64,000 nt of DNA from Geodermatophilus aquaeductus (GTDB lineage Bacteria; Actinomycetota; Actinomycetes; Mycobacteriales; Geodermatophilaceae): the NCBI RefSeq assembly GCF_900182545.1, contig NZ_FXTJ01000001.1, positions 434,001 to 498,000 of the forward strand. The letters run 5' to 3'. A program made the position numbers and the translations under genes. Below the pieces are notes generated by a model. It saw nothing but the letters and a program-made list of their open reading frames with translations. It searched no databases and was not told the DNA's origin. The number at the start of each line of letters is the position of its first letter. Position 1 is the stretch's first letter. Positions 3,607 to 41,156 of the stretch are shown here, piece by piece.

Positions 3607-3667
3607 CGAGATCCCGTGATCTCGTACGGATGGACGGCCATTTGCGTGCGATATCCCGTGATTTCGT
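3607..3667. repeat. Palindromic repeat pair, family A (copies a and b)
   Basis: Copy a (3607-3628) is a 22-mer containing CGAGATC-CCGT-GATCTCG, a 7-bp perfect palindrome. Copy b (3648-3667) is a direct near-copy matching 18 of 20 positions and ending on the stop codon of the DUF559 gene. The exact reverse complement of copy a recurs at 4634-4655 on the other side of that gene. Between the copies is GGCCATTTGCG, which resembles the spacer in the second pair. This is a REP-like interspersed palindrome; its function is unknown. Confidence 0.8.
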
Positions 3668-4539
3668 CAGCGGAGAGCTGCCTTGATCGCCGCGATGACG
3701 TCGTCCGGACGCCCGAGAACGTCCGCCGAGGTGAAGCGCAGGACCGTCCAACCCGCGGCGACCAGGCGATTCTGCCTGCGCAGGTCCTTCACGAACACGT
3801 CCCGATCGCGGTGCAGGTCACCGTCGAACTCGACGATGAGCCTGCGGTCCGGCCACGCCATGTCGGCTCGACCGATGAACCCGCCGCTGTCCCGGACGTC
3901 GACCTGCAGTTTCGGTCGCGGCAGACCTGCGACGTGCACGAGCCACCGCAGGACGGACTCCATGGGTGACTCCGCACGCGGGTCCGCCAGCGGCAGGACG
4001 ACGCGAGCCCGTGCTGAACCGCGTCCCGCCGGCTGCCTCGTCAGCTGCCGCTCGAGCTCGGACGGCGGACAGTGGCGCGCCACCACCTGGTCGGTGACCG
4101 CGAGCAGAGCCGCCGGCTCGAGGATCCCCGCGAGGTCACGCCAGGTGCGCGCAGGTGACGTGACCGGTTGCGCCCAGCGGGTCGTCACGTCGTCGCCGTC
4201 GAGCGGCAGCCGGTGTATGCGGCGGTCACGCCGGCTCTCGGCCCGCGTCCTGCCCGGCACGGTGAGATCGATCCGGTGGTCGTCGCGGTCCTGCAGCGGC
4301 ACATGCAGACCCCACATCGCAGCCGCGGTCAGGTGGCTGGCGACGGCGGTCGCCGGTGCGGTCAGTAACACCGCGGCGAGCCGGGCGCCGACGTCGTCGG
4401 CCAGCGCACGCGGCAGGTACGTGTCCCGGGACAGGCGCTCGAGGGCGGGGTCGCGGAGATGGCGGTCGGTCAGCCCATCAGCCCGGGCTCCGGCCCTCGT
4501 CGTCGGACCTGTGATGCGGCTGGGGCGTCGACTGCGCAC
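3667..4539 (-). CDS. DUF559-domain protein (PD-(D/E)XK/Vsr-like nuclease fold)
   Basis: A 290-residue protein. The N-terminal ~170 residues resemble the AbiEi-like/winged part common in actinobacterial DUF559 proteins. The C-terminal part is DUF559: ADPRAESPMESVLRW (Glu), GFIGRADMAWPDRRLIVEFDG (the D...E-x-D core, about residues 220-241), then KDLRRQNRLVAAGWTVLRF. These match the PD-(D/E)XK pattern, so the likely metal-binding acids are present. Start GTG 4539 has an AAGGTG ribosome site about 5 bases upstream. It is inserted between purS and purC and bracketed by palindromes. No biological role is established for the family; nuclease activity is inference from fold. Confidence 0.85.
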   Translation of the reverse strand: MRSRRPSRITGPTTRAGARADGLTDRHLRDPALERLSRDTYLPRALADDVGARLAAVLLTAPATAVASHLTAAAMWGLHVPLQDRDDHRIDLTVPGRTRAESRRDRRIHRLPLDGDDVTTRWAQPVTSPARTWRDLAGILEPAALLAVTDQVVARHCPPSELERQLTRQPAGRGSARARVVLPLADPRAESPMESVLRWLVHVAGLPRPKLQVDVRDSGGFIGRADMAWPDRRLIVEFDGDLHRDRDVFVKDLRRQNRLVAAGWTVLRFTSADVLGRPDDVIAAIKAALR

Positions 4540-4595
4540 CGCGGCACCTTGCCGCCTGCACGCGTCCGCCCGCTGGCGCCGTCCACAGCCTCGGC

Positions 4596-4655
4596 CGAGA
4601 TCGCGCGATGTCGTACGTCACGGGCGCATTTCGCGTACGAGATCACGGGATCTCG
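4596..4655. repeat. Palindromic repeat pair, family A (copies c and d)
   Basis: Copy c (4596-4617) matches copy a at 19 of 22 positions; copy d (4634-4655) is its exact 22-base reverse complement. Here the two copies face each other and can form a stem with a 16-base loop containing GGCGCATTTCG. The pair lies 57 bases before the DUF559 start codon and 15 bases after the purC stop. It could therefore act as a purC terminator, a promoter-proximal hairpin, or the end of a mobile unit. Confidence 0.8.
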
Positions 4656-4670
4656 ACGGGGCCGGCCGGA

Positions 4671-5546
4671 TCAGCGGAAGGGGGTGCCCGTCAGCTGCTC
4701 GTAGGCGGCGACGTAGCGCTCGCGGGTGGCGGCGACGACGTCGGCGGGCAGCTCCGGCGGGGGCGAGACGCGGTCCCAGCCCGAGGAGGTCAGCCAGTCG
4801 CGGACGTACTGCTTGTCGAACGAGGGCTGCGGCGCACCCGGTGCCCACGACGACGCCGGCCAGAAGCGCGAGGAGTCCGGCGTGAGCACCTCGTCGCCGA
4901 GCACCAGCCCGCCGTCGGAGGAGACCCCGAACTCGAACTTGGTGTCGGCCAGCAGGATGCCCGCCCCCGCGGCGACCTCCGCGCCCCGGCGGTACAGCGC
5001 CAGCGTCAGCTCCCGCAGCTCCTCGGCGCGGGCGGCACCGACGAGGTCGACGACGCGCGCGAAGTCGATCGCCTCGTCGTGCTCCCCCACCTCGGCCTTG
5101 GTCGACGGCGTGAACACCGGCGACGGCAGCCGTGAGCCCTCGACCAGCCCGGGAGGCAGCGGCACGTCGCGGATGGAGCCGGTGCGCTCGTACTCCTTCG
5201 TCCCCGAGCCGGACAGGTAGCCCCGGGCCACGCACTCCACCGGCAGCATCTCCAGCCGCCGCACCAGCATCGCCCGGCCGGCCACCTCGGCGGGCACGTC
5301 CGTGGCCGACACGAGGTGGTGCGTCGCGCCGAACGCCGACAGCACCGGCGTCAGCTGGTCGAACCACCACACCGACAGCGCGGTGAGCACCCGCCCCTTG
5401 TCCGGGATCGGCGTCGGCAGCACGGCGTCGTAGGCCGAGATGCGGTCGGAGGCCACGAGCAGCAGCCGGCCGTCCCCGGCGTCGTAGACCTCGCGCACCT
5501 TGCCGCGCGCCACCAGTGGCAGGTCCACCACCGGGTCCCCGCTCAC
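4671..5546 (-). CDS. purC: Phosphoribosylaminoimidazole-succinocarboxamide synthase (SAICAR synthetase)
   Basis: Ligates aspartate to CAIR with ATP to give SAICAR. The 291-residue product begins [30 protein letters not shown] and SDRISAYD (about 33-40) form the ATP-binding N-lobe, and LADTKFEFG is the conserved SAICAR synthetase signature. Start GTG 5546 overlaps the purB stop as GTGA, so the two are translationally coupled. The frame stays open far upstream through purB, but that is antisense-free frame noise. It is isolated from purS-Q-L only by the DUF559 unit. Confidence 0.96.
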
Positions 5547-6850
5547 GACAGCGCGGCCAGCCGGTCGAACAGCGGGCCCAACTGCCGCACGTAGCCCTCG
5601 GGCCGGCAGATCTCGTCCAGCCGCGCCTCGTCCAGGGTGACGCCGGAGCCGGCGGCACGGGAGCGCAGCGTGTCGCGGAACGGCGTCCCGGAGTTCCACG
5701 TCTCCATCGCCGCGCCCTGCACGAGGGCGTAGGCGTCCTCCCGCGACAGGCCGGTCTCGACGAGCTCCAGCAGGACGGCGGAGGTGTAGATCAGCCCGCC
5801 GGTGAGGTCGAGGTTGGCGCGCATCCGATCGACGTCGACCACCAGGTTCTCCACCAGGCCGGTGGTCAGGTGCAGCAGGTAGTCGGTGGTGATCGCGGCG
5901 TCGGGGAGGAAGACCCGCTCGGTGGAGGAGTGCGAGATGTCCCGCTCGTGCCACAGCGGGATGCCCTCCATCACCGGGACGACGGCGGCGCGCACCACCC
6001 GCGCGAGCCCGGCGATGCGCTCCGAGCGGATGGGGTTCTTCTTGTGCGGCATCGCGCTGGAGCCCTTCTGGCCCGAGCCGAACGCCTCCGACAGCTCCCG
6101 CACCTCGGTGCGCTGCCCGTGCCGCACCTCCAGCGCCACCGCCTCGCACACGGTGGCGATCACGGCCAGCGCCGCCACCCACTCGCTGATCGAGTCGCGC
6201 AGCACGACCTGCGTGGACGCGTCGGCCGGCCGCAGGTCCAGCGCCTGCGCGACGGCGACCTCCACCGACGGGTCGATGAGCGAGTACGTGCCGACGGCGC
6301 CGGAGATCGCGACGACGCCGACCCGCTCGCGCGCGGCCCGCAGCCGGTCGCGGGAGCGGGCCATGGCGAAGGCGAGGTCGGCGACGCGGTGCCCCCACAC
6401 GACCGGCTCGGCGTGCACGCCGTGCGTGCGGCCGACCTTGAGCGTGGCGCGGTGCGCCAGGCCGTGGTCGCGCAGCGCGGCCACCAGGCGGTCGGCCTTG
6501 GCCAGCAGCACGTCGGTGGCCTCGGTGAGCTGCACGGCGAGTGCGGTGTCGAGCAGGTCCGACGACGTCATGCCGTGGTGCACGTAGGCCGCGGCCGACC
6601 GGGGTTCGGTGTTGTCGGCCCAGGCGGTGAGGAAGGCGATGACGTCGTGCTGCGTCGTCTCCTCGATCTCCGCGACGCGCGCAGCCGTGGGCGGCGGGGC
6701 GTTGCGCACCGGCTCGACGACGTCGGCGGGGACCCGCCCGGCCGCGGCGTGCGCCTCGAGCACGAGGGTCTCCACCCGGCACCAGAGCTCGTACTTGTGC
6801 TCGTCGCTCCAGACCCGGCCCATCTCGGGGAGCGTGTAGCGGTCGATCAC
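5543..6850 (-). CDS. purB: Adenylosuccinate lyase
   Basis: Cleaves SAICAR to AICAR and adenylosuccinate to AMP, both with release of fumarate. The 435-residue protein has the superfamily signature [11 protein letters not shown] (263-273), the TSSD segment (95-98) and THGVHAEP (142-149) with the active-site His. It starts at ATG 6850 and ends in a GTGA overlap with purC, making purB-purC a two-gene unit. No promoter is obvious in the short divergent gap to the AI-2E family gene. Confidence 0.97.
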
Positions 6851-6955
6851 GCGGGTACCGCCGTCAATCGGTCAGCTCGTCGAGGCACGTGAGCATCCTC
6901 CCGCAGCGCTAGCGTGATCGAGAACGGCCCTCATCCCCCGAGCCGAAGGACGTCG

Positions 6956-8371
6956 ATGCTGCGACGGGCCAGTGACGCGGTCGCCCGGGCGCGCGAGCGC
7001 ATCCGGGCAGCCGGCGAACGCGATCCGCACGCGTGGCCCGAGCGCGACGACGACCGCGCCATCCTCGTGCACGACGACGAGGCCGACGTCGACCCCGCCG
7101 CCCTGCCCGCCGACGACGACCCGCCCCTGGGCAGCCCCGAGCCCGGCGCCCCCGACCTCGACGGGCCGCTCGGTCCCGGCGGGGTGAGCGGCCCACCGCA
7201 GGGCGGGCGCCCGCAGCGGGCCGTCGAGCGCGGCCGGCGTCTGCTCGGTCCCGGCCGGGAGCAGCCGCGCGGTGACACGTCCGTGCCGAGCGGGCTGCGC
7301 ACGGCCGCGGCGTACTCCTGGCGGATCATCGCCGTCCTCGCCGGTCTCTACGTCCTGCTGTACGTGGCCGCGTACGTGGCCGTCGTGGTCGTGCCGGTGT
7401 TCGTGGCGCTGCTGCTGGCGGCGCTGTTCCAGCCGGGGGCGGCGGCCCTCATCCGGCACGGCTGGCCGCGGTCGCTGGCGGCCTTCGCCATGCTGCTGGT
7501 CGGGCTGGCGGTGGTCGCCGGGATCATCACGCTGGTCGTGCAGCAGATCAGCGCCGGCTTCTCCGACCTCGCCGACCAGGTCAGCCAGGGCCTCGACCAG
7601 ATCCGCGACTTCGCCGTCGACACCTTCCCGGTGACGCAGCGGCAGATCGACGAGGCGGTCACCACCGCCCAGGACGCGCTCGTCGCCAACCAGGACACCC
7701 TCGCCTCCGGCGCGCTCACCACCGCCACCACCGTGGGCGAGGTCTTCACGGGCATCGTCCTGGCGCTGTTCACGCTGTTCTTCTTCCTCAAGGACGGCCG
7801 CTCCATCTGGCTGTGGCTGGTCGGCCTGTTCCCGCGCGAGGCCCGCGCCTACATGGACGAGGCCGCCCGCCGCTCGTGGCGGACGCTGATCTCCTACGTG
7901 CGGGCGACGGTCGTGGTCGCGCTGGTCGACGCGATCGGCATCGGCGTGGGCCTGGCGATCCTCGGCGTCCAGCTGGTCATCCCGCTGGCGGCGCTGGTCT
8001 TCCTCGGCGCATTCATCCCGATCATCGGGTCGTTCCTCGCCGGCTCGGTCGCCGTGCTCGTGGCGCTGGTGACCAAGGGCCCCATCACCGCGCTCATCGC
8101 GCTGGCGATCGTCGTGCTCGTCATGCAGCTCGAGGGGCACGTCCTGCAGCCGCTGCTGCTGGGCAAGGCGGTGCACGTGCACCCGCTCGCGGTCGTGCTG
8201 GCGATCGCGGCCGGCCTGCTCATCGCCGGGATCTTCGGGGCGCTCATCGCCGTGCCGGTGGTGGCCTGCGCCAACGTCGCGGGCACCTACCTGTCCCGGC
8301 GGCACGACGGCCCGCGGCCACCGGAGCCGCGTCCGGAACGCAGCCGCCCGGCGGTGGGAGTGCGCGCTTAA
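6956..8371 (+). CDS. AI-2E family transporter (UPF0118 permease)
   Basis: A 471-residue membrane protein of the AI-2E/UPF0118 family. An acidic, Asp/Pro-rich cytoplasmic N-terminus of about 110 residues is followed by a hydrophobic pair beginning [21 protein letters not shown], an amphipathic central region, and C-terminal helices containing [13 protein letters not shown] and [13 protein letters not shown], both typical of the family. Substrates are poorly defined; only some members export autoinducer-2. ATG 6956 was chosen over GTG 6914 because AAGGA lies 6 bases upstream. The stop overlaps the purD stop (TTAA), so the genes are tail to tail. Confidence 0.88.
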
Positions 8372-9624
8372 GGAGCGGTGATCCGCCCCTCGACGGCGGC
8401 CAGGGCGATGTCGCTGCGCCAGTGGGCACCGGCGAGCCGGACGGCGGCCACCCGCTCGTAGGCCGCCTGCCGGGCGGCGGCGAGGTCGGGGCCGGTGGCG
8501 GTGACGGCGAGCACCCGCCCGCCGGCGGAGCGGACCGTCCCGTCCGGGCCCACGGCGGTGCCCGCGTGCAGCACGCCGGGCCCGTCCGCGCCGGTCACGG
8601 GATCACCGGTGCGCGGCGCCTCCGGGTAGCCCGGCGCCGCGACGACGACGGTCACCGCGGCACCGTCGCGCCAGGTCAGCAGCGGGTGGTCGGCGAGCGT
8701 GCCGGTGGCCGCGGCGTGCAGCAGCCCGGCCAGCGGCGTCTCCAGCAGCGGCAGCACGACCTGGGTCTCGGGGTCACCGAAGCGGGCGTTGAACTCGACC
8801 ACGCGCACGCCGCGGGAGGTCAGCGCCAGCCCGGCGTAGAGCAGGCCGCTGAACGGCTCGCCGCGGCGGCGCATCTCGTCGACCGTCGGCTGCAGCACGG
8901 TCGCGAGCACCTCCTCGACCAGGCCGGCCGGCGCCCACGGCAGCGGCGCGTAGGCGCCCATCCCGCCGGTGTTGGGGCCGGCGTCGCCGTCGTCGCGGCG
9001 CTTGGCGTCCTGCGCGGGCAGCAGCGGCAGCACCGTCGTCCCGTCGGTGACGGCGAACAGCGAGACCTCGGGGCCGTCGAGGTACTCCTCGACCAGCACC
9101 GCCCCGCCGGCGTCGAGCACCCGGTGCCCGTGCGCGAGGGCAGCGTCCCGGTCGGTCGTGACGACGACCCCCTTGCCGGCGGCCAGCCCGTCGTCCTTGA
9201 CCACGTACGGCGCGCCCGCCTCGTCCAGCGCCGTCTCCAGCTCCGCGGGGCCGCCGACCGGCCAGGCGCGCGCGGTCGGCACACCAGCGGCGGACATCAC
9301 GTGCTTGGCGAAGGACTTGCTGCCCTCGATCTGCGCGGCCTCCGCCGACGGGCCGAAGCAGGCGATGCCGGCGTCGCGGACGGCGTCGGCGGCACCGGCG
9401 ACCAGCGGCACCTCCGGCCCGATGACGACGAGGTCGGCGTCCCAGCCGGTGGCCAGCGCGGCGACCGCCACCGGGTCGGCGACGTCGACCGGCCGGTGCT
9501 CGGCGACCGCCCGCGTGCCGGCGTTGCCCGGCGCGCAGGCCAGCGCGGTCACCGCGGGGTCGGACGTCAGAGCGACGCACAGGGCGTGCTCCCGGGCTCC
9601 GGAGCCGATCACGAGCACGCGCAC
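8368..9624 (-). CDS. purD: Phosphoribosylamine-glycine ligase (GAR synthetase)
   Basis: Second step of purine synthesis: ligates glycine to phosphoribosylamine using ATP. The 418-residue protein starts [15 protein letters not shown], the standard PurD N-terminus, and contains [17 protein letters not shown] (ATP-grasp glycine-rich loop), [12 protein letters not shown] and [12 protein letters not shown] (Mg/ATP site). GTG 9624 was chosen because this N-terminus is invariant in the family, although the frame is open upstream through rsgA. It converges on the AI-2E gene with overlapping stops. Confidence 0.96.
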
Positions 9625-9649
9625 GGAGCGCGACCCTACCGACGCGGGG

Positions 9650-10723
9650 TCAGCGCACCCGGTTCGGCTGCGCCCGGTACGCGCGGAACACCGCTCTGGC
9701 CCGCTGGTGCTCCGCGGCGCGGGCGCGGGCGTCGGACCGCAGCAGCTGGCGGTGCGCCTCGGCCTGCAGCTTGCGCCAGCCCAGGAGCCGGGCGGGGTCG
9801 AGCCGGCCGTCGTCGATGGCCGCCGCGACGGCGCAGCCGGGCTCGGTGCGGTGCGCGCAGTCGCGGAACCGGCAGCCGGCGGCGAGCTCCGCGACGTCGG
9901 CGTAGGCGGTGTCCACGCCCTCGTCGTCGTAGAGCCCGAGCTCGCGCATGCCGGGGGTGTCCACCAGCAGGCCGCCGCCGGGCAGCACGTGCAGCTCGCG
10001 CGAGGTGGTGGTGTGCCGTCCCCGCCCGTCGGCCTCCCGGACGTCCTGCGTGGGCGCCACCTCCCGGCCGGCCAGCGCGTTGGCCAGCGAGGACTTCCCC
10101 ACACCGGAGGGGCCGACCATCGCCGCCGTGCGTCCCGGGCCGAGCAGCGCGCGCACCGCGTCCAGCCCCTCGCCGGTGCGCGCGCTCACGGCGAGCACCT
10201 CCACGCCCAGGGCGTCCTCGGCGACCTCCGCCACGGCGGCGTCGACGTCGTCGCACAGGTCGGCCTTGGTGAGGACGACGACCGGCGTGGCCCCGCTCCC
10301 CCACGCCACGGCCAGGTACCGCTCGACCCGCCGGGCGCGCGTCGGCCCGGCCAGCGCGTCGACGACCAGCACGAGGTCGAGGTTGGCGGCCACCACCTGC
10401 GCGGCCGACGTCCGACCGGCGACGGTGCGGGTGAACGCCGAGGTGCGGGGCAGCAGCGCGACGGCGAGCTCCCCGCGCAGCGCCACCCAGTCGCCGACCG
10501 CGGGGGCTGCGAGGCCGTCGGGGTCGTAGAGCCCGGCGGCCGGGTGCACCCGGCGCTCGCCGTCGGCGGTGAGCACGGTGAGGCGGCCGCGGTCGACCCG
10601 CGCCACCCGTCCGGGGGAGGTGCCCGGGGGCAGGTGCTCGAGTCGGTCCGGCGACCAGCCGATCGCTGAGAGATGCGTCACGGACCGGATGGTGCTCCGC
10701 AGGTCAGCGCGCCGTCCTCCCAT
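9650..10723 (-). CDS. rsgA: Ribosome small subunit-dependent GTPase A
   Basis: Late-stage 30S maturation GTPase. The 357-residue protein shows the circularly permuted G-motif order of the family: OB-fold region first, TKAD (G4) before [10 protein letters not shown] (G1), then DTPGM (G3). The C-terminal zinc site [14 protein letters not shown] fits C-x4-C-x-H-x5-C. It lies 25 bases upstream of purD on the same strand. The start codon near 10723 falls in a divergent region shared with the phosphodiesterase gene, and a shorter start at the VTHLSAIGW region is possible. Confidence 0.94.
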
Positions 10724-10786
10724 TTCTCAGCGAAACGCCAGCGCGCGTTCGCCATCCCGACACCTCGGTCGGGTGTTCTGGATGGC

Positions 10787-11839
10787 ATGCACGCGACCGA
10801 GTCGCTCGCGACTCACGCACGGGTCCGCTCCTCGGATCCCTTCGTCGTCGGTCACCGCGGTGCCTGTGCGTACCGCCCGGAGCACACGATCGCCAGCTAC
10901 GAGCTGGCCATCGACATGGGCGCGGACTTCATCGAGCCCGACATCGTCGTCACCCGCGACGGCGCGCTGGTCGCGCGGCACGAGAACGAGCTCTCGCGCA
11001 CGACCGACGTCGCCACCCGGCCGGAGTTCGCCGACCGGCGCACCACCCGCCGGGTCGGCCGCAAGAGGCGCTCCGGCTGGTTCGCCGAGGACTTCACCCT
11101 CGCCGAGCTGCGCACCCTGCGCGCCGTCGAGCGCCACCCGGACCTGCGCCCGCTCAACACCGCCTACGACGGGCACTTCGGCGTCCTCACGCTCGAGGAG
11201 GTCGTCGAGCTGGTCCGCCGCCGGTCCACGCCGCAGCGCCAGGTGCGCGTGCTCGCCGAGCTGAAGAAGCCCTCCTGGTCGGCCGAGCACGGCCAGCCGA
11301 TGACCGAGCTGGTGGCCGCCGAGCTGCGCCGCCTCGACGCCACCGCGCCCGACGGCCCGGTCGTGCTGCAGTCCTTCGACACCGCCGGCCTGCGGCGGCT
11401 GCGCGCCGACCTGGGCGACGACGGGCCGACGATGTTCCAGCTGGTCGACAGGGCCTCCTGCGACGACCACCTGCTCACCAACGCCGGGCTGCGCGCGGTC
11501 TCCACCTACGCGCAGGGCATCGCGCCGAGCATCGACCGCATCCTGCTGCGCGACGCCGAGCACCGGATGACCGGCGTCTCCGACCTGGTGCCCCGCGCGC
11601 ACGCGGCGGGCCTGACGGTCGTGCCGTGGACGCTGGCCGCCGAGAACACCTTCCTGCCGCTGCACCTGCGCAGCAGCGACGACCCGGCGGCCCCCGGCGA
11701 CGCCCTGGGCGCGGCGCGGCTGCTGCTGGCCCTCGGCGTCGACGGCGTCATCACCGACAACCCCGACGTCGTGGTCGCCGCCCGGGCCGCGCTGCAGGAC
11801 CCCGAGCGCACGCGCCCGATGCGGGTCCTGAGCGCCTAG
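10787..11839 (+). CDS. Glycerophosphodiester phosphodiesterase family protein
   Basis: Predicted to hydrolyse glycerophosphodiesters to glycerol-3-phosphate and an alcohol. The 350-residue product has the GDPD core near the N-terminus: VVGHRGACAYRPEHT (first catalytic His and Arg), DFIEPDIVVTRDG (metal-binding Glu/Asp) and ARHENELSRTTDV (second His). No signal peptide is visible from ATG 10787. The frame also opens at 10673, which would overlap the divergent rsgA start; I prefer 10787 but its ribosome site is weak. Its TAG stop is embedded in the 21-bp inverted repeat that bounds the variable block. Confidence 0.85.
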   Translation: MHATESLATHARVRSSDPFVVGHRGACAYRPEHTIASYELAIDMGADFIEPDIVVTRDGALVARHENELSRTTDVATRPEFADRRTTRRVGRKRRSGWFAEDFTLAELRTLRAVERHPDLRPLNTAYDGHFGVLTLEEVVELVRRRSTPQRQVRVLAELKKPSWSAEHGQPMTELVAAELRRLDATAPDGPVVLQSFDTAGLRRLRADLGDDGPTMFQLVDRASCDDHLLTNAGLRAVSTYAQGIAPSIDRILLRDAEHRMTGVSDLVPRAHAAGLTVVPWTLAAENTFLPLHLRSSDDPAAPGDALGAARLLLALGVDGVITDNPDVVVAARAALQDPERTRPMRVLSA

Positions 11840-11856
11840 GACCTGTCCTGCGGATC
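11836..11856. repeat. Left copy of a 21-bp inverted repeat bounding the variable block
   Basis: The sequence begins CTAGGACCTGTCC and continues TGCGGATC; it includes the phosphodiesterase TAG stop. Its exact reverse complement lies at 17643-17663, where it includes the purA TAG stop. The core GGAC-CT-GTCC is itself a short palindrome. Between the copies lie only accessory genes and an insertion sequence. Confidence 0.85.
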
Positions 11857-12102
11857 TCGTGCGCCGCCATCCCTGTCCCTGGAGGCGGCTTCACGGACGG
11901 GGAGGGGCGGCCCCGTCGGCCGCTGTCGTGTCCGTCCGGCCGCGCCCTCCCGACTTCCGTCATCGCGGCGTAGCTGGCGTGGCCGTACTCGCCGCCGTCT
12001 TCTACACCACGCAGTCCTGGCTGGTCGCTGATGCCAGTTCAGTGACACCGCGAGGGGACGTGTGCGCTCCCCATCACCGGATGACCACCGGCCGGGACGC
12101 GC
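11857..12102. other. Non-coding stretch; possible decayed insertion-sequence end
   Basis: No convincing gene is seen. A stretch starting at 11874 (TGTCCCTGGAGGC...GGACGGGG) resembles the IS110-type terminal sequence at 16150 and 17619, and GGCCGCTGTCG near 11920 also occurs just inside the left IS end. This may be a degraded end of a related element, but the similarity is partial. Confidence 0.3.
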
Positions 12103-21539: not shown

Positions 21540-21540
21540 C

Positions 21541-21587
21541 CGTGCACCTCCGCGGATCTGCACCGGGCAGATCCGCGGAGGTGCACG
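21541..21587. repeat. Long palindrome, family B copy 1 (21-bp arms)
   Basis: A perfect inverted repeat: arms 21541-21561 and 21567-21587 around ACCGG. The arm runs CGTGCACCTCCGCGGA then TCTGC. It sits between two convergent genes and could terminate both, but there is no T-tract and the core GTGCACNTCCGCGGA recurs in the palindrome at 24532, pointing to a dispersed repeat family. Confidence 0.8.
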
Positions 21588-21590
21588 GCC

Positions 21591-24515: not shown

Positions 24516-24531
24516 ACCGTACGGCCGGACT

Positions 24532-24580
24532 CCGTGCACATCCGCGGAGATGCACGGTGCATCTCCGCGGATGTGCACGG
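24532..24580. repeat. Long palindrome, family B copy 2 (24-bp arms)
   Basis: Perfect 24-base arms (24532-24555 and 24557-24580) with one central base. It shares the core GTGCACNTCCGCGGA with the palindrome at 21541. It lies between the pyrE stop (24582) and the glycolate-oxidase-like start on the same strand, where it would form a very strong hairpin, probably separating the two transcripts. Confidence 0.8.
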
Positions 24581-24581
24581 A

Positions 24582-31262: not shown

Positions 31263-31333
31263 GGTCGGTGCTGTCGCTCCTTCTGTCAGGGGTGCCGGGA
31301 ACGCCCCGGCGCGGTGCTGGTCTCGAGCCGTCC

Positions 31334-31366: not shown

Positions 31367-31465
31367 CTCGACGGGCACCGACCGGTCGGCGACATTTCGC
31401 GTCCGGGGGGTTGACGCTCGACACAACTGCATGCCACGCGACCTGGTTGTCCCTACACTTCTGTC

Positions 31466-31939: not shown

Positions 31940-32036
31940 CCCGACGGGTTGCCCGCAACCGATCGGGGTAGGGCCGCCTGGTCCCGCGTGCCGGCGAGAC
32001 CACGCCGGCACGCCCCCCGACCGGAAGGCAGCCCTG

Positions 32037-32480
32037 ATGCCCACCCGCACCGCACGCACCGCCTGGAACGGCACCCTCGAGCAGGGCTCCGGCCAGGTCG
32101 AGCTGACCAGCTCGAAGGTCGGCACCTACGAGGTGAACTTCCCCAAGCGCGCTGCCGACGACGCCGGCGGCACGACCAGCCCCGAGGAGCTCGTCGCGGC
32201 GGCCCACTCCGCGTGCTTCGCGATGCAGCTGTCGGCCAACATCGCCCAGGCCGGCGGCACGCCGCAGTCCCTCGAGGTGCAGGCCGACGTCTCCCTCGGC
32301 CCGGACCAGGCCAACGGCGGCTTCACGCTCACCGGCATCACGCTCACCGTGCGCGGCGAGGTCGACGGCCTCGACGCCGCCGCCTTCGAGAAGGCCGCCC
32401 AGGAGGCCAAGGCCGGGTGCCCCATCAGCAAGGCGCTGGCCGGCGTCGACATCACCCTGGACGCCGCCCTCGAGTCCTGA
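32037..32480 (+). CDS. osmC: OsmC-family peroxiredoxin
   Basis: A 147-residue thiol peroxidase that reduces organic hydroperoxides. Conserved features are the N-terminal WNGTLEQGSG, SPEELVAAAHSACFAMQLS with the peroxidatic Cys, and GCPISKAL with the resolving Cys; these match OsmC more than Ohr. ATG 32037 has GGAAGG 8 bases upstream. It is 97 bases after the OhrR-like gene on the same strand and is followed by repeat D2 and a perfect hairpin. Confidence 0.9.
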   Translation: MPTRTARTAWNGTLEQGSGQVELTSSKVGTYEVNFPKRAADDAGGTTSPEELVAAAHSACFAMQLSANIAQAGGTPQSLEVQADVSLGPDQANGGFTLTGITLTVRGEVDGLDAAAFEKAAQEAKAGCPISKALAGVDITLDAALES

Positions 32481-32483
32481 TGT

Positions 32484-32540
32484 AAGGACCCCCTGCCCCC
32501 CGCCACTCGCGAGCTCGCGGCGGGCCCCTGCAGCGGGGCC
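32484..32540 (+). repeat. Nested-hairpin repeat, family D copy 2, after osmC
   Basis: Begins 4 bases after the osmC stop, AAGGACCCCCTGC, and ends GCAGCGGGGCC. Stem CTGC/GCAG plus CCCC/GGGG, with an inner hairpin around CTCGCGAGCTCG. Same position relative to the upstream stop codon as copy 1 after clpB. Confidence 0.75.
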
Positions 32541-32545
32541 GAAAA

Positions 32546-32581
32546 CGACGGCCCGCTCCCCTGCCGGGGAGCGGGCCGTCG
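32546..32581. terminator. Bidirectional hairpin terminator between osmC and the MFS gene
   Basis: A perfect 16-bp stem (32546-32561 with 32566-32581; CGACGGCCCGCTCCCC arm) around TGCC, preceded by AAAA. It sits between two convergent genes and can serve both. Confidence 0.8.
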
Positions 32582-32592
32582 TCGTCGGGAGG

Positions 32593-34260
32593 TCAGGCGG
32601 CGTCGGCCACCGTCGGCCGGGACTCGCGCTGCAGCCGCTCCTCGCCGCTCTCGGTGCGCAGGGCGACCTCGTGGATCAGCACGATGGCCGCGACGGCGAC
32701 CACGGCGATGATCGCCGAGACGAGGAAGATCCGGCCGGTCGCGTCGCCGTAGGACACCCGGATGAGCTCCTGGATGGCCGGCGGCGCGTCCTTGAGGTCG
32801 GCCAGCCCGACGCTGCCCGAGCCGGTGCCGGCCGCGGCCAGCTCCGGCGGCAGGCCGGCCGCGATCAGGTCGCCGACCCGGTTGCTGAGCACCGCGCCGA
32901 GAACCGAGACGCCGATGGTGCCGCCCAGGCTGCGGAAGAACGCCACGGCGGAGGACGCCGCGCCGAGGTCGGTGGCGGCCACGGTGTTCTGCACCGCGAG
33001 CACCAGGTTCTGCATCGTCATGCCGATGCCGACGCCCAGGACGAACAGGAAGACGCCGAGCAGCACCATGTTCGTCTCGTGGTCGATCGTCGCCAGCAGG
33101 GCGAAGCCGGCGGTGACCAGCAGCGAGCCGGCCACGAGGAACCGCTTCCACCGGCCGTGGCGGGTGATGAGGATGCCCGACACGGTGGAGGAGACCAGCA
33201 GGCCGCCGACCATGGGGATCGTCAGCAGGCCGGCCGCCGTCGGCGAGTAGCCGCGGGAGATCTGCAGGTACTGGCCGAGGAAGACCGTCGAGCCGAACAT
33301 CGCGACACCGATGGCGACGCTGGCCACGATCGCGAGGGTCGTCGTCCGGTCGCGGAACAGCCGCAGCGGGACGATCGGCTCGGCCGCCCGGAGCTCGGTG
33401 ACGACGAAGGCGACGATGGCCACGACGCTGCCGGCGAGGAACAGCGCCGTCTCGACCGAGGCCCACGCGAACTGGTCGCCGGCGAGGGTGACCCAGATGA
33501 GCAGCCCCGAGACGCCGGCGGTCAGGAACGCGGCACCGAGGTAGTCGATGCGCACCCGGCGCCGGGTCACCGGCAGGTGCAGCGTGCGCTGCAGCAGCAC
33601 CAGCGCGACGACGGCGAAGGGGACGCCGACGTAGAAGCACCAGCGCCAGCCGAGCCAGCTGGTGTCGACCAGCAGGCCGCCGAGCAGCGGGCCGCCGACG
33701 GTGGCCACGGCCATGACACCGCCGAGCAGGCCGGAGTACCGGCCGCGCTCGCGGGGGCTGATCATCGCGGCCATCGCGATCTGGACCAGCGCCTGCAGGC
33801 CGCCGAGGCCCAGACCCTGGAGCACGCGCCAGCCGATGAGCGTGCCCACCGACTGCGACAGGCCGGCCAGCATCGAGCCGACGATGAAGATGACGATCGA
33901 CAGCTGGATCAGCAGCTTCTTGCTGAACAGGTCGGAGAGCTTGCCCCAGATCGGCGTGGACGCCGTCGAGGCCAGCAGCGTCGCGGTGACCACCCAGGTG
34001 TACTGGCTCTGGCTGCCGCGCAGGTCGGTGATGATCGTGGGCAGGGCGTTGGAGACGACGGTCGAGGACAGGAACGCCACGAACATCGCCAGCAACATCC
34101 CCGAGAGCGCCTCGAGGATCTGCCGGTGCGTCATGCGCCCCTGTTGCTCGGCGGGCGCCTGCGTCCCCGGTGCGGCCGCGCTCGGCTCGCGGGTGGTGGT
34201 CACGGTGCTCCTGGACTGCTCGGTGCGGGTGGGGGACTGCTCGGTGCGGGAAGTGGTCAC
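32593..34260 (-). CDS. MFS drug exporter, EmrB/QacA (DHA2) family
   Basis: A 555-residue proton-coupled exporter with 14 predicted helices. Motifs: STVVSNALPTIITDL in helix 1, GKLSDLFSKK (motif A) between helices 2 and 3, and GWRVLQGLGLGGL (helix 4). An N-terminal ~55-residue Thr/Ser/Glu-rich tail is cytoplasmic. GTG 34260 overlaps the stop of the upstream MarR gene (GTGA), so the pump is the regulated partner of that repressor. The substrate cannot be told from sequence. Confidence 0.92.
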   Translation of the reverse strand: MTTSRTEQSPTRTEQSRSTVTTTREPSAAAPGTQAPAEQQGRMTHRQILEALSGMLLAMFVAFLSSTVVSNALPTIITDLRGSQSQYTWVVTATLLASTASTPIWGKLSDLFSKKLLIQLSIVIFIVGSMLAGLSQSVGTLIGWRVLQGLGLGGLQALVQIAMAAMISPRERGRYSGLLGGVMAVATVGGPLLGGLLVDTSWLGWRWCFYVGVPFAVVALVLLQRTLHLPVTRRRVRIDYLGAAFLTAGVSGLLIWVTLAGDQFAWASVETALFLAGSVVAIVAFVVTELRAAEPIVPLRLFRDRTTTLAIVASVAIGVAMFGSTVFLGQYLQISRGYSPTAAGLLTIPMVGGLLVSSTVSGILITRHGRWKRFLVAGSLLVTAGFALLATIDHETNMVLLGVFLFVLGVGIGMTMQNLVLAVQNTVAATDLGAASSAVAFFRSLGGTIGVSVLGAVLSNRVGDLIAAGLPPELAAAGTGSGSVGLADLKDAPPAIQELIRVSYGDATGRIFLVSAIIAVVAVAAIVLIHEVALRTESGEERLQRESRPTVADAA

Positions 34261-34739
34261 GGGGCGGCCCCGACGGCGGGGCGGGCCGGCGGCTGCGCGG
34301 CGCGGTCGAGGTCGTCGGTCAGCCGCTCGATCAGCGCGCTGAGCAGGCGGGCGTCGTCCTCGTCCCAGCCGGCGAGGGCCTCGACGGCCCATTCCGCGCG
34401 CAGCGCACGGGTCTGGGCGAGCGCGGTGGCGCCGGCGGGCGAGAGCCGGATGAGGCTGGCGCGCCCGTCGTGCGGGTCGGGCCGGCGCTCGACCAGGCCG
34501 GACCGCTCGAGGGCGGTCACCTGGCGGCTGGCGACGGAGACGTCGACACCGGCCTGCGCGGCCAGCGCGCTGCAGCGCTGCTCGCCGTCGCGCTCGAGCG
34601 GGACGAGCAGCGCCCAGCCGAAGGAGGGCAGCTCGCCGTAGAGGGAGTCCGCCGCGCGGCTGGACAGGTGCCGGCCGGCCCGGACGAGACAGGCGATGCC
34701 GGCGGTGAGCCGCTCGCGCGTCGAGGTGGAGAGGGGCAT
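34257..34739 (-). CDS. MarR-family repressor of the adjacent exporter
   Basis: A 160-residue winged-helix regulator: LAAQAGVDVSVASRQVTALERSGLVERRPDPHDGRASLIRLS is the recognition helix plus wing with the conserved DGR. ATG 34739 has GAGGA 4 bases upstream. The gene is coupled by GTGA to the DHA2 exporter and has a large inverted repeat in its promoter region (34761-34802), fitting an autoregulated, ligand-relieved efflux operon. Confidence 0.9.
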   Translation of the reverse strand: MPLSTSTRERLTAGIACLVRAGRHLSSRAADSLYGELPSFGWALLVPLERDGEQRCSALAAQAGVDVSVASRQVTALERSGLVERRPDPHDGRASLIRLSPAGATALAQTRALRAEWAVEALAGWDEDDARLLSALIERLTDDLDRAAQPPARPAVGAAP

Positions 34740-34760
34740 GGCGTCCTCGTCGAGAGGTGA

Positions 34761-34802
34761 TTGCAGACCGCAACCATACATCCGGTTGGTTGCTGTCTAC
34801 AA
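34761..34802 (-). promoter_or_regulatory. Candidate MarR operator upstream of marR-MFS
   Basis: Arms TTGCAGACCGCAACC (34761-34775) and GGTTGCTGTCTACAA (34788-34802) match at 13 of 15 inverted positions around a 12-base spacer. The operator begins 22 bases upstream of the marR start codon, and its sequence is markedly more AT-rich than its surroundings. Such promoter-covering palindromes are typical of MarR autorepression. Confidence 0.65.
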
Positions 34803-34836
34803 CCAGCTACCTCTCCGGCGTGTTCCGCACACACGA

Positions 34837-34873
34837 CGACGGCGCCCGGACCGAGGAGGTCCGGGCGCCGTCG
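34837..34873 (-). terminator. Terminator at the end of the dnaK operon
   Basis: A perfect 16-bp stem (34837-34852 with 34858-34873; CGACGGCGCCCGGACC arm) around GAGGA, 26 bases past the stop of the last operon gene. It separates the heat-shock operon from the marR-MFS promoter. Confidence 0.75.
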
Positions 34874-34898
34874 GGTGTCCGTGGATCGGGCGGGCGGG

Positions 34899-35420
34899 TC
34901 AGGAGGGCGGGACCGTGCCCGCCTCGCGCGCCTCGCCCAGCCGGTTGAGCCGGGCCAGCAGCTCACCGAGGACGGTGATGTCCTCGGCCGGCCAGCCGGA
35001 GAGGTCGGCCTCCCAGCGCTCGCGCCGCGCGTTCCGGATCCGGGCCAGCCGGGCCGCACCCTCGGCCGTCGGGGTGAGCACCTGGGCCCGGCCGTCGGCG
35101 GGGTCGGCCTCGCGGTCGACCAGGCCGAGGGCGACCAGCGAGGACACCTGCCGGCTGACCGTGCTCTTGTCCAGGCCGAGGCGGGCGACCAGGTCGCTGG
35201 CGCGCAGCGGGCCGGCGTCGGCCAGGAGCGCCAGCAGCCCGTAGGCCGCGCCGTCGAGGTCGGGGTGCAGCTCGCGGGCCAGGCGGGCCGAGATCGCCCG
35301 CGACCGGCGCAGCAGCAGCCCGATCTCGCGCTCGAGCCGCACGAAGGACTCGTGCGGGTCCGCGGGCGTGCTCGTCACGTCCCCATCCACGACGGCGGCG
35401 CCGCGGGGGTTCCCGCTCAC
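34899..35420 (-). CDS. MarR-family regulator, last gene of the dnaK operon
   Basis: A 173-residue winged-helix protein: ASDLVARLGLDKSTVSRQVSSLVALGLVDREADPADGRAQVL is the DNA-binding unit with the conserved DGR wing. GTG 35420 overlaps the hspR stop as GTGA, so it is translated with the chaperone operon. Its target is unknown; the nearby marR-MFS operator at 34761 is the closest candidate but that operon has its own MarR. Association with hspR suggests heat induction. Confidence 0.85.
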   Translation of the reverse strand: MSGNPRGAAVVDGDVTSTPADPHESFVRLEREIGLLLRRSRAISARLARELHPDLDGAAYGLLALLADAGPLRASDLVARLGLDKSTVSRQVSSLVALGLVDREADPADGRAQVLTPTAEGAARLARIRNARRERWEADLSGWPAEDITVLGELLARLNRLGEAREAGTVPPS

Positions 35421-35893
35421 CGCTGCGACTCCCGCGGGCGCCACACGACCAGCGCGGAGGTCGCCTGCCGCAGCGGCACGATGTCGGTGCCCACGAGGTC
35501 GCGGCCGTAGCCGCTGGCGAGCGCCGACTCGGCCGACATCCGGCGGTGCTCGGACCGCTCGAGCTCGCCGATCAGCTCGTGCACCCGCTGCTGCAGGGCC
35601 TCGACCTGCGACTCCAGGTCGATGATCCGCTTGATGCCAGCCAGGTTGACGCCGTCCTCCTGGGACAGGCGCTGGACCTCCCGCAGCAGCGCGACGTCCC
35701 GCGGGCTGTAGCGGCGCCCGCCACCGGGTGTACGGCCGGGGGTGACCAGGCCGAGCCGGTCGTACTGGCGCAGCGTCTGGGCGTGCATGCCGGCCAGCTG
35801 CGCGGCCACCGAGATGACGAACACGGGGGCGTCGTCGGCCACGGCGCGGGCACCGTCGGCGCGCTCGCGGCCCCCGGTGCCCGGGGCGCTCAC
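35417..35893 (-). CDS. hspR: Heat-shock repressor HspR (MerR family)
   Basis: A 158-residue MerR-type autorepressor: [44 protein letters not shown] is the winged helix, followed by a helical dimerisation arm ([20 protein letters not shown]). In actinobacteria HspR binds HAIR sites with DnaK as corepressor. HAIR sites are visible before dnaK and before clpB here. ATG 35893 overlaps the dnaJ stop (ATGA), placing it fourth in dnaK-grpE-dnaJ-hspR. Confidence 0.95.
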
Positions 35894-37122
35894 CGGGTGC
35901 TCCCGCGCTCGGCGTTGCGGGCCTGGGTGGCCGCGGTGATCTGCGGCCGGGGGTCACCCAGTTCGGCGTCGAGGGTCTTCACCGCCCGCTCGGCCTCGGC
36001 CGACAGCCGCTGCGGAACGGCGACCTCGACGGTCACCAGCAGGTCGCCGTTGCGGCCGCGGCCGGGCACTCCCCTGCCCCGGACCCGCAGCGTGCGGCCA
36101 CTCGCGGTGCCGGCGGGCACCTTGAGGGTGACGTTGCCGTCCAGCGTGGGGACGGTCAGCGTCGTCCCGAGGACGGCCTCGGGGAAGGTGATCGGCACGG
36201 TGAGGGTGAGGTCGTCACCCTTACGGCTGAACAGGTCGTGGTCGCTGACGTGCACGACGACGAACAGGTCGCCCGCCGGACCGCCGCGCCGCCCGGGCGC
36301 GCCCTTGCCGGCCAGCCGGATGCGCTGGCCGTCCTTGACGCCGGCCGGGATCCGCACGGTGATGGTGCGGGTCTGGGTGGTGACGCCGTCGCCGTGGCAG
36401 GTCGGGCACGGGTCGTCGACCACCTGGCCGGTGCCGCGGCAGGCGCGGCACGGCTCGGAGAAGGCGAACGCGCCCTGGCTGCGACTGGTGACGCCGGCCC
36501 CGCCGCAGACCTCGCAGGTGTGCGGCGAGGTGCCGGGCCTGGCCCCGGTGCCGGTGCAGGTCGGGCAGGTGCCCGGGCTCTGCATCCGCAGCGGCACGGT
36601 GACACCGAGGACGGACTCCTCGAACGAGAGCGTCGCCTCGGTCTCGACGTCCTGCCCGCGGGCCGGCCCGGACGCCGCCTGGGAGCGGGCCCGGGCCGAG
36701 CCCGGCGCGGCACCGCCGCCGCCGCCGCCGCCGAACAGGCCGCCGAAGAGGTCGCCCAGGCCGCCGGCGCGCGCGCCGGCCCCGGAAGCGGCCTGGCCGA
36801 AGAGGTCACCCAGGTCGAACGGCTGTCCGCCGCCCGAGCCCGGGAACCCGCCGGGGAAACCGGCCCGCGCCCCGGCGCCGCCGGAGCCGAACAGCCGCCG
36901 GGCGTCGTCGTACTCGCCGCGCCGCTTGGGGTCGGAGAGCACGTCGTAGGCCTCGGAGACCTCCTTGAAGCGGGCCTCGGCGTCGGCGTTGCCCGGGTTC
37001 TTGTCCGGGTGCAGGTCCCGCGCCAGCGCGCGGTAGGCCTTCTTGATCTCCGCGGCGTCGGCGCCCTGGGAGACGCCGAGCGCGGCGTAGTAGTCCTTCT
37101 CGATGAAGTCCCGAGTGCTCAT
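35890..37122 (-). CDS. dnaJ: Chaperone DnaJ
   Basis: Type I Hsp40 of 410 residues: J-domain with the HPD tripeptide in [10 protein letters not shown], a Gly/Phe-rich region with a long Gly run ([15 protein letters not shown]), four CxxCxGxG-type zinc repeats ([32 protein letters not shown]), and beta-sandwich C-terminal domains. ATG 37122 has AGGAGG 6 bases upstream. It lies between grpE and hspR, and its stop overlaps the hspR start. Confidence 0.96.
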
Positions 37123-37177
37123 CGGGCGCCTCCTCCCTGGTCCTCGTCGGTCCGCATGTCGCGGTCGGTCGCGGCGG

Positions 37178-37881
37178 TCAGCCGGCGGCCGGGGTCTCCC
37201 CCGGCGCACTCTCGCCGGCCGGCTCGGGCGCGGCGCCCGAGGGCTCGCTCACCGACACCATCGCCGTCCGCAGCACGCGGTCGCCGCGGCGGAAACCCGG
37301 CCGCAGGACCGTCGTCGCGGTCGGCACGGTGACCTCGTCGGACGTGTCGTGGAGGACCGCCTCGTGCAGCGACGGGTCGAACGGGTCGCCGGCGACGCCG
37401 AAGGCCTCCACGCCCAGGCCGTCGAGCAGCCCGAGGACGCGGTCGGCCACGACCTTGAAGGCGCCGGTCAGGTCGCCGTGGTCCCGGGCCCGCTCGATGT
37501 CGTCGACGATCGGGAACAGCTGGGCGGCGAACCGCTCGGCCGCCTGGTCGACGACGAGCGTGCGGTCGCGGTCGACCCGCCGCCGGTAGTTGGCGTACTC
37601 CGCGGTGACCCGCTGGAGGTCCTCGGTGCGCTCGGCCAGCTGGCGCGACAGGTCACCGTCGGCGGTGCTGTCGGCCGGCGCCTGGACGGGCGCCTCCGGG
37701 ACGGCCGTCTCGTTCTCGGTCATCTGCTCCCCTGGCGATGGGTGGGCCGGTGTCTGTTCCGGAGCCGGGCGGGGCGGGACGCCGGCCGGCTGCTCGCCGG
37801 CCGGCGTCCGCACCTCACCGCTGACGGGGTCGATCCGCCGCTTGTCACGGATCACGACCCGCGGCTGCTCGTCCCCCTGGC

Positions 37882-37885
<4 letters not shown>
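37178..37885 (-). CDS. grpE: Nucleotide-exchange factor GrpE
   Basis: A 235-residue cofactor that releases ADP from DnaK. A disordered, Pro/Glu-rich N-terminus of about 75 residues precedes the long helix ([20 protein letters not shown]) and the signature region [19 protein letters not shown]. The C-terminal [23 protein letters not shown] is the beta-wing. ATG 37885 overlaps the dnaK stop by 4 bases. Confidence 0.95.
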
Positions 37886-39747
<1,862 letters not shown>

Positions 39748-39815
39748 GGAGCTGGCTCCTCTTCCGTGTGCGGTGTGGTGCGGGTGTCAGGGGGTCGGTC
39801 GAGGGAGCGTCTCGC

Positions 39816-39836
39816 CTTGCGCGAGGTCCACTCAAC
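39816..39836 (-). promoter_or_regulatory. HAIR operator upstream of dnaK
   Basis: On the minus strand GTTGAGT-N7-GCGCAAG, matching CTTGAGT-N7-ACTCAAG in the first half and partly in the second. It lies 69 bases before the dnaK start codon; TTGAGT within it could serve as a -35 element. Together with the clpB site it defines an HspR regulon in this window. Confidence 0.7.
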
Positions 39837-39904
39837 TTTCCTGCCCAGACTAACGGCAGACCGCGCGGAGGTGTTCCCGGGGGCCGGTACACGACACCGT
39901 CGTC

Positions 39905-39948
39905 CCGCTACCGCTACCGCTACCGCCACCGCCACCGCCGCCGCCGCC
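39905..39948. repeat. Hexanucleotide tandem repeat
   Basis: A run of CCGCTA units passing into CCGCCA and CCGCCG units (about seven units) in the intergenic region between dnaK and the second DUF559 gene. Length may vary between strains; no function is evident. Confidence 0.7.
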
Positions 39949-39979
39949 ACTGGCCGGCCGGACACCACCCTCACCGCGC

Positions 39980-40017
39980 GGTGCCCGACCTCGCGTTGCG
40001 GGGTGGGGTCGGGCACC
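39980..40017. repeat. Palindromic repeat, family C copy 1
   Basis: Arms GGTGCCCGACC (39980-39990) and GGTCGGGCACC (40007-40017) around a 16-base centre, then ACACGGGGAGGGCG. An almost identical unit in the same orientation occurs at 41115-41156, just past the end of the DUF559 gene. The first copy is 90 bases before its start codon. Confidence 0.8.
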
Positions 40018-40107
40018 ACACGGGGAGGGCGATCCACACCTCCGGCCGCCCTCCACAGTCCGGCGCCCTTCGACCTGAGGAGGGAGGGAGCCCGCCACGG
40101 TGACGGT

Positions 40108-41100
40108 GTGCACCCCGTTCTCCGCGCCGCGGCCGAGCGCCAGTGGGGCCTGTTCACCGCCGTCGACGCGCGCCGCGCGGGCTACGGCCACGACGAGATC
40201 CGCGTCCTGTGCGCCACCGGCGGCTGGGTGCGCCTGCGCCGCGGCGTCTACACGACCGCGGCCCGACTGGCCGACCTCGGGGACCGTCGGCACGGCGTGG
40301 ACTGCCTGGCGGCCCTGCTCTCCCTCGACCGGCCCGGCGCCGTCGTCAGCCACGGCTCGGCCGCCCTGCTCTTCGGCCTGCCGGTCTGGACGGGGCTGGA
40401 CCCCACCGTGCGGCTCACCGACCCGGCGCAGTGGCGGGCGGGTTCGGCCTTCCGCATGTCGTGCGCACCCCTGAGCCCCGGCGAGGTCGTTCGGCGCGGC
40501 CCCTTCCGGCTCACCTCGACGGCCCGCACCCTGGTCGACTGCGCCCGGGAGTGGCCGCTGGAGGACGCCGTCGTAGCCATGGACGCCGCCCTCCTGGCCG
40601 GGTGGACGACACCCCAGGACCTCTCGCACGCGGTGGCAGCGCAGGCATCCTGGCGTGGCGCACCGCGGGCGCGGCGTGCGATCGGGCTGGCCGACGGGCG
40701 CGCAGAGTCCCCGCTGGAGACGCGCGGACGGCTGCGCATCCTCGGGGCGGGGCTGCCCACCCCGGAGCTGCAGGTCGAGATCCGGAGCGACGGGCGGCTC
40801 GTCGGCGTCGTCGACGCGTGGTTCGACGACGCCGCGGTCGCCGTCGAGTTCGACGGGCGGGTGAAGTACACCCGGCCGTGGCGCGACCGCTCCGCCGCAC
40901 AGGTCCTGTGGGAGGAGAAGCGGCGCGAGGACGAACTCCGCGCCCTGGGCATCCGCGTCGTCCGCATCGCCGACGCCGACCTCGGCGACCCCTGGCCGGC
41001 CACGGCCGACCGCGTGGCCGGGCTGCTCGGCACGCCCGGGCCGGCGACCCGGCCGTTCACGGCCACCCCCCGGGCCCTCGGGCGACGGCAGTCCGCGTGA
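40108..41100 (+). CDS. AbiEi-like antitoxin-domain protein with C-terminal DUF559 nuclease fold
   Basis: A 330-residue protein. Residues about 1-60 (AAAERQWGLFTAVDARRAGYGHDEIRVLCATGGWVRLRRGVY) match the winged-helix N-domain of AbiEi-type type IV antitoxins. The C-terminal part has the DUF559 pattern: DGRAESPLETRGRLR, LQVEIRSDG, VVDAWFDDAAVAVEFDG (D...E-x-D core) and EEKRREDELRALGIRVVRI. GTG 40108 has only a distant AGGGAGGGAG, so the start is tentative. No AbiEii toxin gene is adjacent. It is flanked by direct copies of palindrome family C. The function is unknown; DNA cleavage is inferred from fold. Confidence 0.85.
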   Translation: MHPVLRAAAERQWGLFTAVDARRAGYGHDEIRVLCATGGWVRLRRGVYTTAARLADLGDRRHGVDCLAALLSLDRPGAVVSHGSAALLFGLPVWTGLDPTVRLTDPAQWRAGSAFRMSCAPLSPGEVVRRGPFRLTSTARTLVDCAREWPLEDAVVAMDAALLAGWTTPQDLSHAVAAQASWRGAPRARRAIGLADGRAESPLETRGRLRILGAGLPTPELQVEIRSDGRLVGVVDAWFDDAAVAVEFDGRVKYTRPWRDRSAAQVLWEEKRREDELRALGIRVVRIADADLGDPWPATADRVAGLLGTPGPATRPFTATPRALGRRQSA

Positions 41101-41114
41101 GCAGACCGCGCCGC

Positions 41115-41156
41115 GTGGTGCCCGCCCTCGCGCCGCAGCGTGAGGTCGGGCACCAC
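41115..41156. repeat. Palindromic repeat, family C copy 2
   Basis: Arms GTGGTGCCCGCCCT (41115-41128) and AGGTCGGGCACCAC (41143-41156), 13 of 14 paired. The inner sequence CGCGCCGCAGCGTG also nearly matches copy 1, and ACACGGCGAGGACG follows as in copy 1. It begins 14 bases after the DUF559 gene stop. Confidence 0.8.

Follow-up and report, generated by a model that had tools for sequence, protein, structure and literature searches.

Why should a gene for a predicted nuclease be enclosed, at both ends, by copies of the same palindromic sequence? The question is raised by a 64,000-nucleotide stretch of the 5.43-Mb genome of Geodermatophilus aquaeductus (contig NZ_FXTJ01000001.1, positions 434,001 to 498,000; hereafter the window), in which two related genes, here called A and C, each lie between a pair of palindromic elements. 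A preliminary description of this DNA proposed that the proteins, assigned to the DUF559 family, are the cognate nucleases of the palindromes that surround them. We find that these genes are bracketed by elements of which matching copies are dispersed through the genome, that protein and palindrome match clade by clade, that element-gene-element cassettes have been swapped between strains, and that the nuclease residues are conserved. The pairing of DUF559 genes with flanking palindromes is therefore supported, and we infer that the protein cuts or moves them. We consider it probable that the gene and its two flanking elements are one co-evolving unit, a partnership like that of REPIN elements and RAYT enzymes, run by an unrelated nuclease that spreads the elements.

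Gene A (3667-4539, minus strand) sits between purC and purS, and the closest named protein relative comes from Geodermatophilus amargosae. Each of its flanks is a 60-bp doublet of 18-bp palindromes with a start-to-start spacing of 42 bp. The downstream doublet (3607-3666; palindromes 3607-3624 and 3649-3666) touches the stop codon, and the upstream one (4596-4655; palindromes 4596-4613, which is degenerate, and 4638-4655) lies 57 bp 5' of the start; the outer 22 bp of the upstream element (4634-4655) are an exact inverted copy of 3607-3628. This family A palindrome takes the form CGAGATCNCGNGATCTCG (NCGN pattern). Around gene C (40108-41100, plus strand) the element is a single 63-bp hairpin, not two separate palindromes, and its copies at 39969-40031 (upstream) and 41106-41168 (downstream) are 83% alike. 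The bracketing first reported for both genes is confirmed. Seven elements were folded as single-stranded DNA against 200 shuffles each: no shuffle was as good for six of them, and 6 of 200 were for the degenerate copy at 3607-3666 (z -2.0). The hairpin z-scores were -3.6 for the upstream element of gene A, and -3.6 and -6.1 for the upstream and downstream elements of gene C. An Rfam scan of 3300-4900 gave no match.

Within the window, the family A palindrome with up to three mismatches gives seven strand matches at four gene A sites, where 0.12 are expected and none of 100 shuffles scores as high. The exact NCGN palindrome has 14 copies genome-wide and its reversed control none. Twelve of these copies make up six dispersed 42-bp doublets on contigs C1, C2, C3 (two), C14 and C17, and the other two flank gene A, where their partner palindromes carry mismatches. 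One dispersed 60-bp doublet (L017, C14:71298-71357) seems, by eye and without a check of open reading frames (ORFs), to lie within a coding region. The 11-mer arm of the family C hairpin, GGTGCCCGACC, is marginal when counted alone in the window (16 matches against 8.0 expected, 1 of 100 shuffles as high); the complete hairpin occurs five times genome-wide, with none for the reversed control, and four full hairpins in the genome lie away from gene C.

A strong palindrome is no rarity in itself here (53 in 464 kb, against 1 in a 100-kb Markov control), so it is the locus-specific match between flanks that carries the argument. We searched 96 genomes of the family, in 48 of which the distinct A subfamily was present at E < 1e-60; its 52 loci include one partial hit, and the palindrome and flank tests count 51. 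Further sets comprised 25 other DUF559-type loci, gene C included (O25); from the 412 loci of a third subfamily, the best 80, in Modestobacter, Blastococcus, Geodermatophilus, Klenkia, one Micromonospora and others (O80); gene C together with 29 relatives (C30); and, from five other families of the order, 20 loci in 16 genomes, chosen among the matches listed. O25 and O80 share 11 loci, and gene C (L026) belongs to both O25 and C30. The upstream and downstream flanks of a gene were alike beyond the 99th percentile of same-locus control pairs at 47/51 A, 12/25 O25, 40/80 O80 and 26/30 C30 loci, and at 14 of the 20 loci from other families. Against neighbouring ORF-end windows (1142 control pairs), 45/51 A and 13/25 O25 loci stood out. 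Inverted repeats in the flanks exceeded the 99th percentile of control windows upstream and downstream, respectively, at 45 and 39 of 51 A loci, 11 and 16 of 25 O25 loci, 41 and 29 of 80 O80 loci, and 17 and 21 of 30 C30 loci. Of 298 genomes sampled across the order, 259 had relatives of gene C (E <= 0.001).

Flanking palindromes and own-flank matches are thus both above control, the contrast on which the preliminary description had staked its proposal, and chance and terminator readings are disfavoured on the same two counts. The idea that the hairpins are nothing more than terminators, or palindromes that arise by chance in GC-rich DNA, does fit the many hairpins directly after stop codons and the frequency of strong palindromes in the genome. 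We nevertheless regard it as extremely improbable, given own-flank matches that surpass same-locus and ORF-end controls alike, the upstream copies and the doublet spacing.

The type of element follows the clade of the protein, as had been predicted for a cognate pair. On a tree of 48 A proteins and three outgroup rows, the element types need 11 changes (minimum 8), against a mean of 33.9 when shuffled, with none of 200 shuffles as low; some groups on this tree are mixed in element type, and support for the NCGN branch is low. The tree and the residue conservation given below leave out the partial proteins of L060, L082, L084 and L086, and the comparison of element likeness with protein identity leaves out L060. 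Across genomes, the median likeness score of the elements is 17 at 30-40% protein identity and 57 above 70%. High-identity pairs may share their flanks by descent, and comparisons within a genome therefore weigh more. There, DUF559 genes have mostly unlike elements (median likeness 17 over 42 pairs), and the four pairs that score above 30 (L029/L031, L031/L032, L039/L070 and L054/L072) encode proteins 47-58% alike.

The resident gene also goes with the elements dispersed through its genome. Copies were counted in the 49 genomes with an A locus, at thresholds set above the number that flank the gene itself. NCGN palindromes reached at least five copies in all six genomes with an NCGN gene and in 1 of 43 others (6/6 against 1/90 when all 96 genomes are taken), and other CGAGATC-type palindromes reached at least five in 9 of 12 genomes with a GGC gene against 8 of 37 others. 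TGC-type palindromes, by a search pattern that also matches CTGCGA-type elements, reached at least three in 12/12 genomes with a TGCACA gene against 8/37 others. Looser thresholds were attained by 42 of 48 genomes with an A-type gene and 6 of 48 without (G087, a partial hit, being entered among the latter), a contrast that is partly circular because copies flanking the gene itself can satisfy them. These results bear on the suggestion that an undetected RAYT, or another transposase, moves the elements as REPINs and that the DUF559 gene is a passenger caught between two of them. The anatomy of the elements is indeed like that of REPINs as described in PMC3116915, but a gene carried along in this way should neither keep step with the palindrome from clade to clade nor be bracketed in other families as well. 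On this evidence, which includes no RAYT search, we think the suggestion quite unlikely.

Comparison of orthologous loci shows cassettes that have changed as a whole. Either purC or purS lies within the flanks (up to 1.5-2.5 kb) of 37 of the 52 A genes, and neither does in 15. Between genomes G000 and G030, identity is 88-98% in purC and 94-100% across purS and the first part of purQ, and drops to 59-83%, in 100-bp windows, between purC and purS (about 4700 to 3500 in the window). Judged from the alignment, this difference is a swapped element-gene-element cassette with another palindrome type. The pairs G041/G070 and G078/G092 likewise have purS 97-99% identical (over a stretch of about 200 bp), gene A 71-78% identical, and different palindrome types. 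A purC search covered 30 genomes, with purS within the flank in 15, and yielded an empty site, of the kind that the preliminary description had called for, together with a lone-element and a decayed one. The purC-purS site of G007 is about 110 bp long with, by eye, neither gene nor element; that of G037 (L330) holds a lone GGC-like element and no nuclease gene; and in G091 a decayed A gene still lies between both elements. G058 has an intact A gene between two elements, and several other genomes have different sequence at this site.

For four of the six dispersed A doublets of the G. aquaeductus genome (seg1 to seg4), we searched 20 genomes for orthologous sites, of which six to nine aligned per site, and read the element types by eye. 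These sites carry NCGN, GGC or TGCACA elements, or nothing. At seg4, six of six elements are of the same type as the resident gene, and no element is present in G062, a genome without that gene. The other sites show exceptions: decayed NCGN elements at seg1 in G059 and G089, whose genes are GGC; an NCGN element at seg2 in G030, whose gene is GGC and which at seg1 has one palindrome of each type; and, at seg3, an element in G046 unlike that of its gene and, in G082, where the A gene is missing, a half relic. Empty orthologous sites were seen in several genomes that carry an A gene. Seven loci of G077 were fetched as well, four of which were analysed, with types read by eye (a fifth had one conserved side only). 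Three A-type elements there clearly match (G057, G069 and G043), a relic in G088 does not, and palindromes of many unrelated families are present. Dispersed elements may have been converted in place, as at first seemed convincing at seg3 and seg4.

What kind of protein could be responsible? Pfam, profile matches and conservation give the product of gene A an AbiEi-type N-terminal part followed by a DUF559 or Vsr-like nuclease domain. The DUF559 model (PF04480) scores 39.9 bits against a Pfam gathering score of 20.6, and, numbered from the GTG start, all 48 A proteins examined have S191, E194, D226, D239, G240 and H243, and 47 of the 48 have E237. The ratio of nonsynonymous to synonymous substitution rates (dN/dS) is 0.14-0.27 in the six pairs computed, indicating that the protein is maintained. 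The gene C protein is a homologue of AbiEi type, 40% identical to that of gene A, and by Pfam, profile and residue comparison keeps most of the nuclease core; AbiEi models match the N-terminal region of both. Pfam reports no DUF559 match for it at E <= 0.1 and only AbiEi_4 above the cut-off, and a lysine occupies its histidine column, so the initial assignment of both genes to DUF559 with an intact core stands for gene A and has to be relaxed for gene C. A profile of 71 relatives (A3) hits 3hrl over positions 225-289 (E 1.8e-5) and, over positions 231-286 (E 2.1e-4), 3r3p, a 'Mobile intron protein' that we take to be I-Bth0305I. A structure model from the single sequence was poor (mean predicted local distance difference test score 46, with blocks in residues 191-289 at 56-82); Foldseek returned nothing for it at E <= 0.001, and 3hrl ranked third in that search (E 0.28).

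The AbiEi matches in both proteins raise the alternative that the palindromes are operators, bound by the AbiEi-type part so as to control its own gene and a regulon, with no movement involved. AbiEi antitoxins bind inverted repeats upstream of their own operon, and many of the genes studied here do have palindromes upstream. Operators would hardly account, though, for the second copy at or beside the stop codon in many loci, for dispersed copies that by eye often lie right after stop codons or between convergent genes, or for cassette swaps that change the palindrome type, and we judge this explanation unlikely. The kinship of the nuclease domain with 3r3p and the lone element of G037 at purC-purS would, for their part, suit a homing-type insert that landed in pre-existing palindromes, the elements being its targets and having spread otherwise. 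Such an origin also appears improbable, in that the A loci read usually have complete elements, not half-sites, on both flanks, and the copy number and type of the elements go with the resident gene; at the gene loci, swaps and one lone-element site were seen. The probabilities we attach to these rival explanations overlap and need not sum to one.

Set beside known systems, the proposed partnership of nuclease and palindromes comes closest to REPIN/RAYT (the REPtron). As in the systems of PMC3116915 and PMC3733652, a single gene lies between palindrome doublets that fold as hairpins (type A), copies are dispersed and mostly extragenic, the gene is flanked by its cognate repeats, and the clade of the enzyme is matched to the repeat family. 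Unlike RAYTs, the enzyme here is an AbiEi and PD-(D/E)XK-type nuclease and not a Y1 HUH tyrosine transposase, no Y1/HUH family being among the Pfam matches of genes A and C at E <= 0.1, and the terminal GTAG tag is absent from the eight A and six C elements of the genome whose ends were read; because the enzyme is unrelated to RAYT, the system would work like REPIN/RAYT without being a member. Repetitive extragenic palindromic (REP) sequences tagged CGTC apparently have no dedicated transposase (PMC3733652); in the genome studied here, CGT stands just outside one end of four of eight A elements (L009, L017, L019 and the upstream element of gene A), with CGTC spanning the boundary.

The EDxHD homing endonuclease I-Bth0305I has a homologous nuclease domain (3r3p) and, according to a review (PMC3943268), binds as a dimer to a target of nearly 60 bp, about as long as the elements described here. 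Unlike that system, genes A and C have no intron visible around them, a complete element occupies each flank, and matching elements are dispersed. Caulobacter VsrA is a Vsr-like protein that shares the DUF559 domain and differs in being described, in PMC12907096, as a predicted mismatch-repair endonuclease; the main text of that article has no word beginning with palindrom. AbiEi, the antitoxin of the type IV toxin-antitoxin system AbiE, resembles the N-terminal part, which here is fused to a nuclease core. The main text of a 2025 survey of REP sequences that includes actinomycete genomes (PMC12306157) has no word beginning with nuclease, RAYT, Geodermatophil or Blastococcus. In our searches of the open-licence literature we found no description of a pairing between DUF559 nucleases and palindromes, and one may be in print elsewhere.

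A conserved TNTCCACA / CTGTGGAC motif lies between the upstream element and the gene and, unlike the palindromes, is common to all subfamilies examined. At gene A it reads GTCCACAG (4581-4588; CTGTGGAC on the gene strand), and at gene C two TCCACA motifs (40033-40038 and 40052-40057) stand 19 bp apart. Within 180 bp upstream, TGTGGA on the gene strand occurs at 52/52 A and 76/80 O80 loci and TCCACA at 29/30 C30 loci, where 1.8, 1.6 and 1.2 are expected for the forward word; in the other families the motif is found on either strand within 220 bp at 18/20 loci. It is paired at a distance of 17-19 bp in several loci, and it resembles the DnaA box.

Other palindromes are also dispersed in these genomes. 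A family built on TGCANNTCCGCGGANNTGCA occurs at 21540-21588 and 24531-24581 in the window and at three places in C2:200001-600000 of the same genome, by eye directly 3' of a stop codon in four of five cases, and no adjoining nuclease gene was seen at the loci examined. Stop-proximal gaps in Blastococcus hold several further large palindrome families, for instance one built on GATCAGGTNACCTGATC.

How might the nuclease spread its elements? The relatedness to 3r3p, the dimer target of about 60 bp and the AbiEi match together lead us to propose a dimeric nuclease acting on a bipartite 60-bp site. Its AbiEi-type part, which probably binds DNA, would be joined to a nuclease domain like those of Vsr and I-Bth0305I; as a dimer, the protein would most likely recognise the bipartite palindrome of roughly 60 bp and nick or break DNA at element-type sites, and repair or replication could then copy the element to new, mostly intergenic places. 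The same process might exchange the whole element-gene-element cassette between strains.

Several observations weigh against this account. Binding, cleavage and movement of the palindromes, and their spread by the enzyme, are inferred, none having been observed directly, and target-site duplications were looked for by eye and none seen. Gene and flanks have a common descent, so some of the clade matching would arise even if the protein did nothing. Own-flank matches were not above control at 4/51 A, 13/25 O25, 40/80 O80 and 4/30 C30 loci and at 6/20 loci from other families, where strong flank palindromes are also rare (above the 99th percentile upstream in 3/20 and downstream in 1/20). G064 has 11 NCGN copies and a gene of the GACGAAC type. 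Some genomes without an A-type gene carry elements (the six noted at loose thresholds; for example G082 and G013, while G091 retains its decayed gene): elements can outlast the gene, the outcome against which the preliminary description had set its proposal, but not in all relatives. The stop-proximal gaps of Blastococcus often hold unrelated palindrome families, so that shared position alone is no proof of in-place conversion.

A broader version of the proposal, which we offer tentatively, is that DUF559/AbiEi proteins form a second, non-homologous class of REPIN partner across the order, acting as site-specific nucleases that spread and update palindromes of about 60 bp by break-and-copy. 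When a nuclease of new specificity arrived in a strain, its dispersed elements would be replaced by the new type or converted to it, and at fixed places, purC-purS among them, strains would exchange the cassette as an allele. More generally, our results suggest an undescribed partnership between an enzyme family of soil bacteria and selfish repeats. They propose a role that can be tested for a very common gene family without known function, and offer a candidate partner enzyme for actinobacterial palindromic repeats. Should the nuclease drive the elements, selfish repeats of the REPIN kind would have arisen at least twice, with unrelated enzymes, and these loci would provide a natural set of matched nuclease-target pairs (about 60 bp) for studies of specificity.

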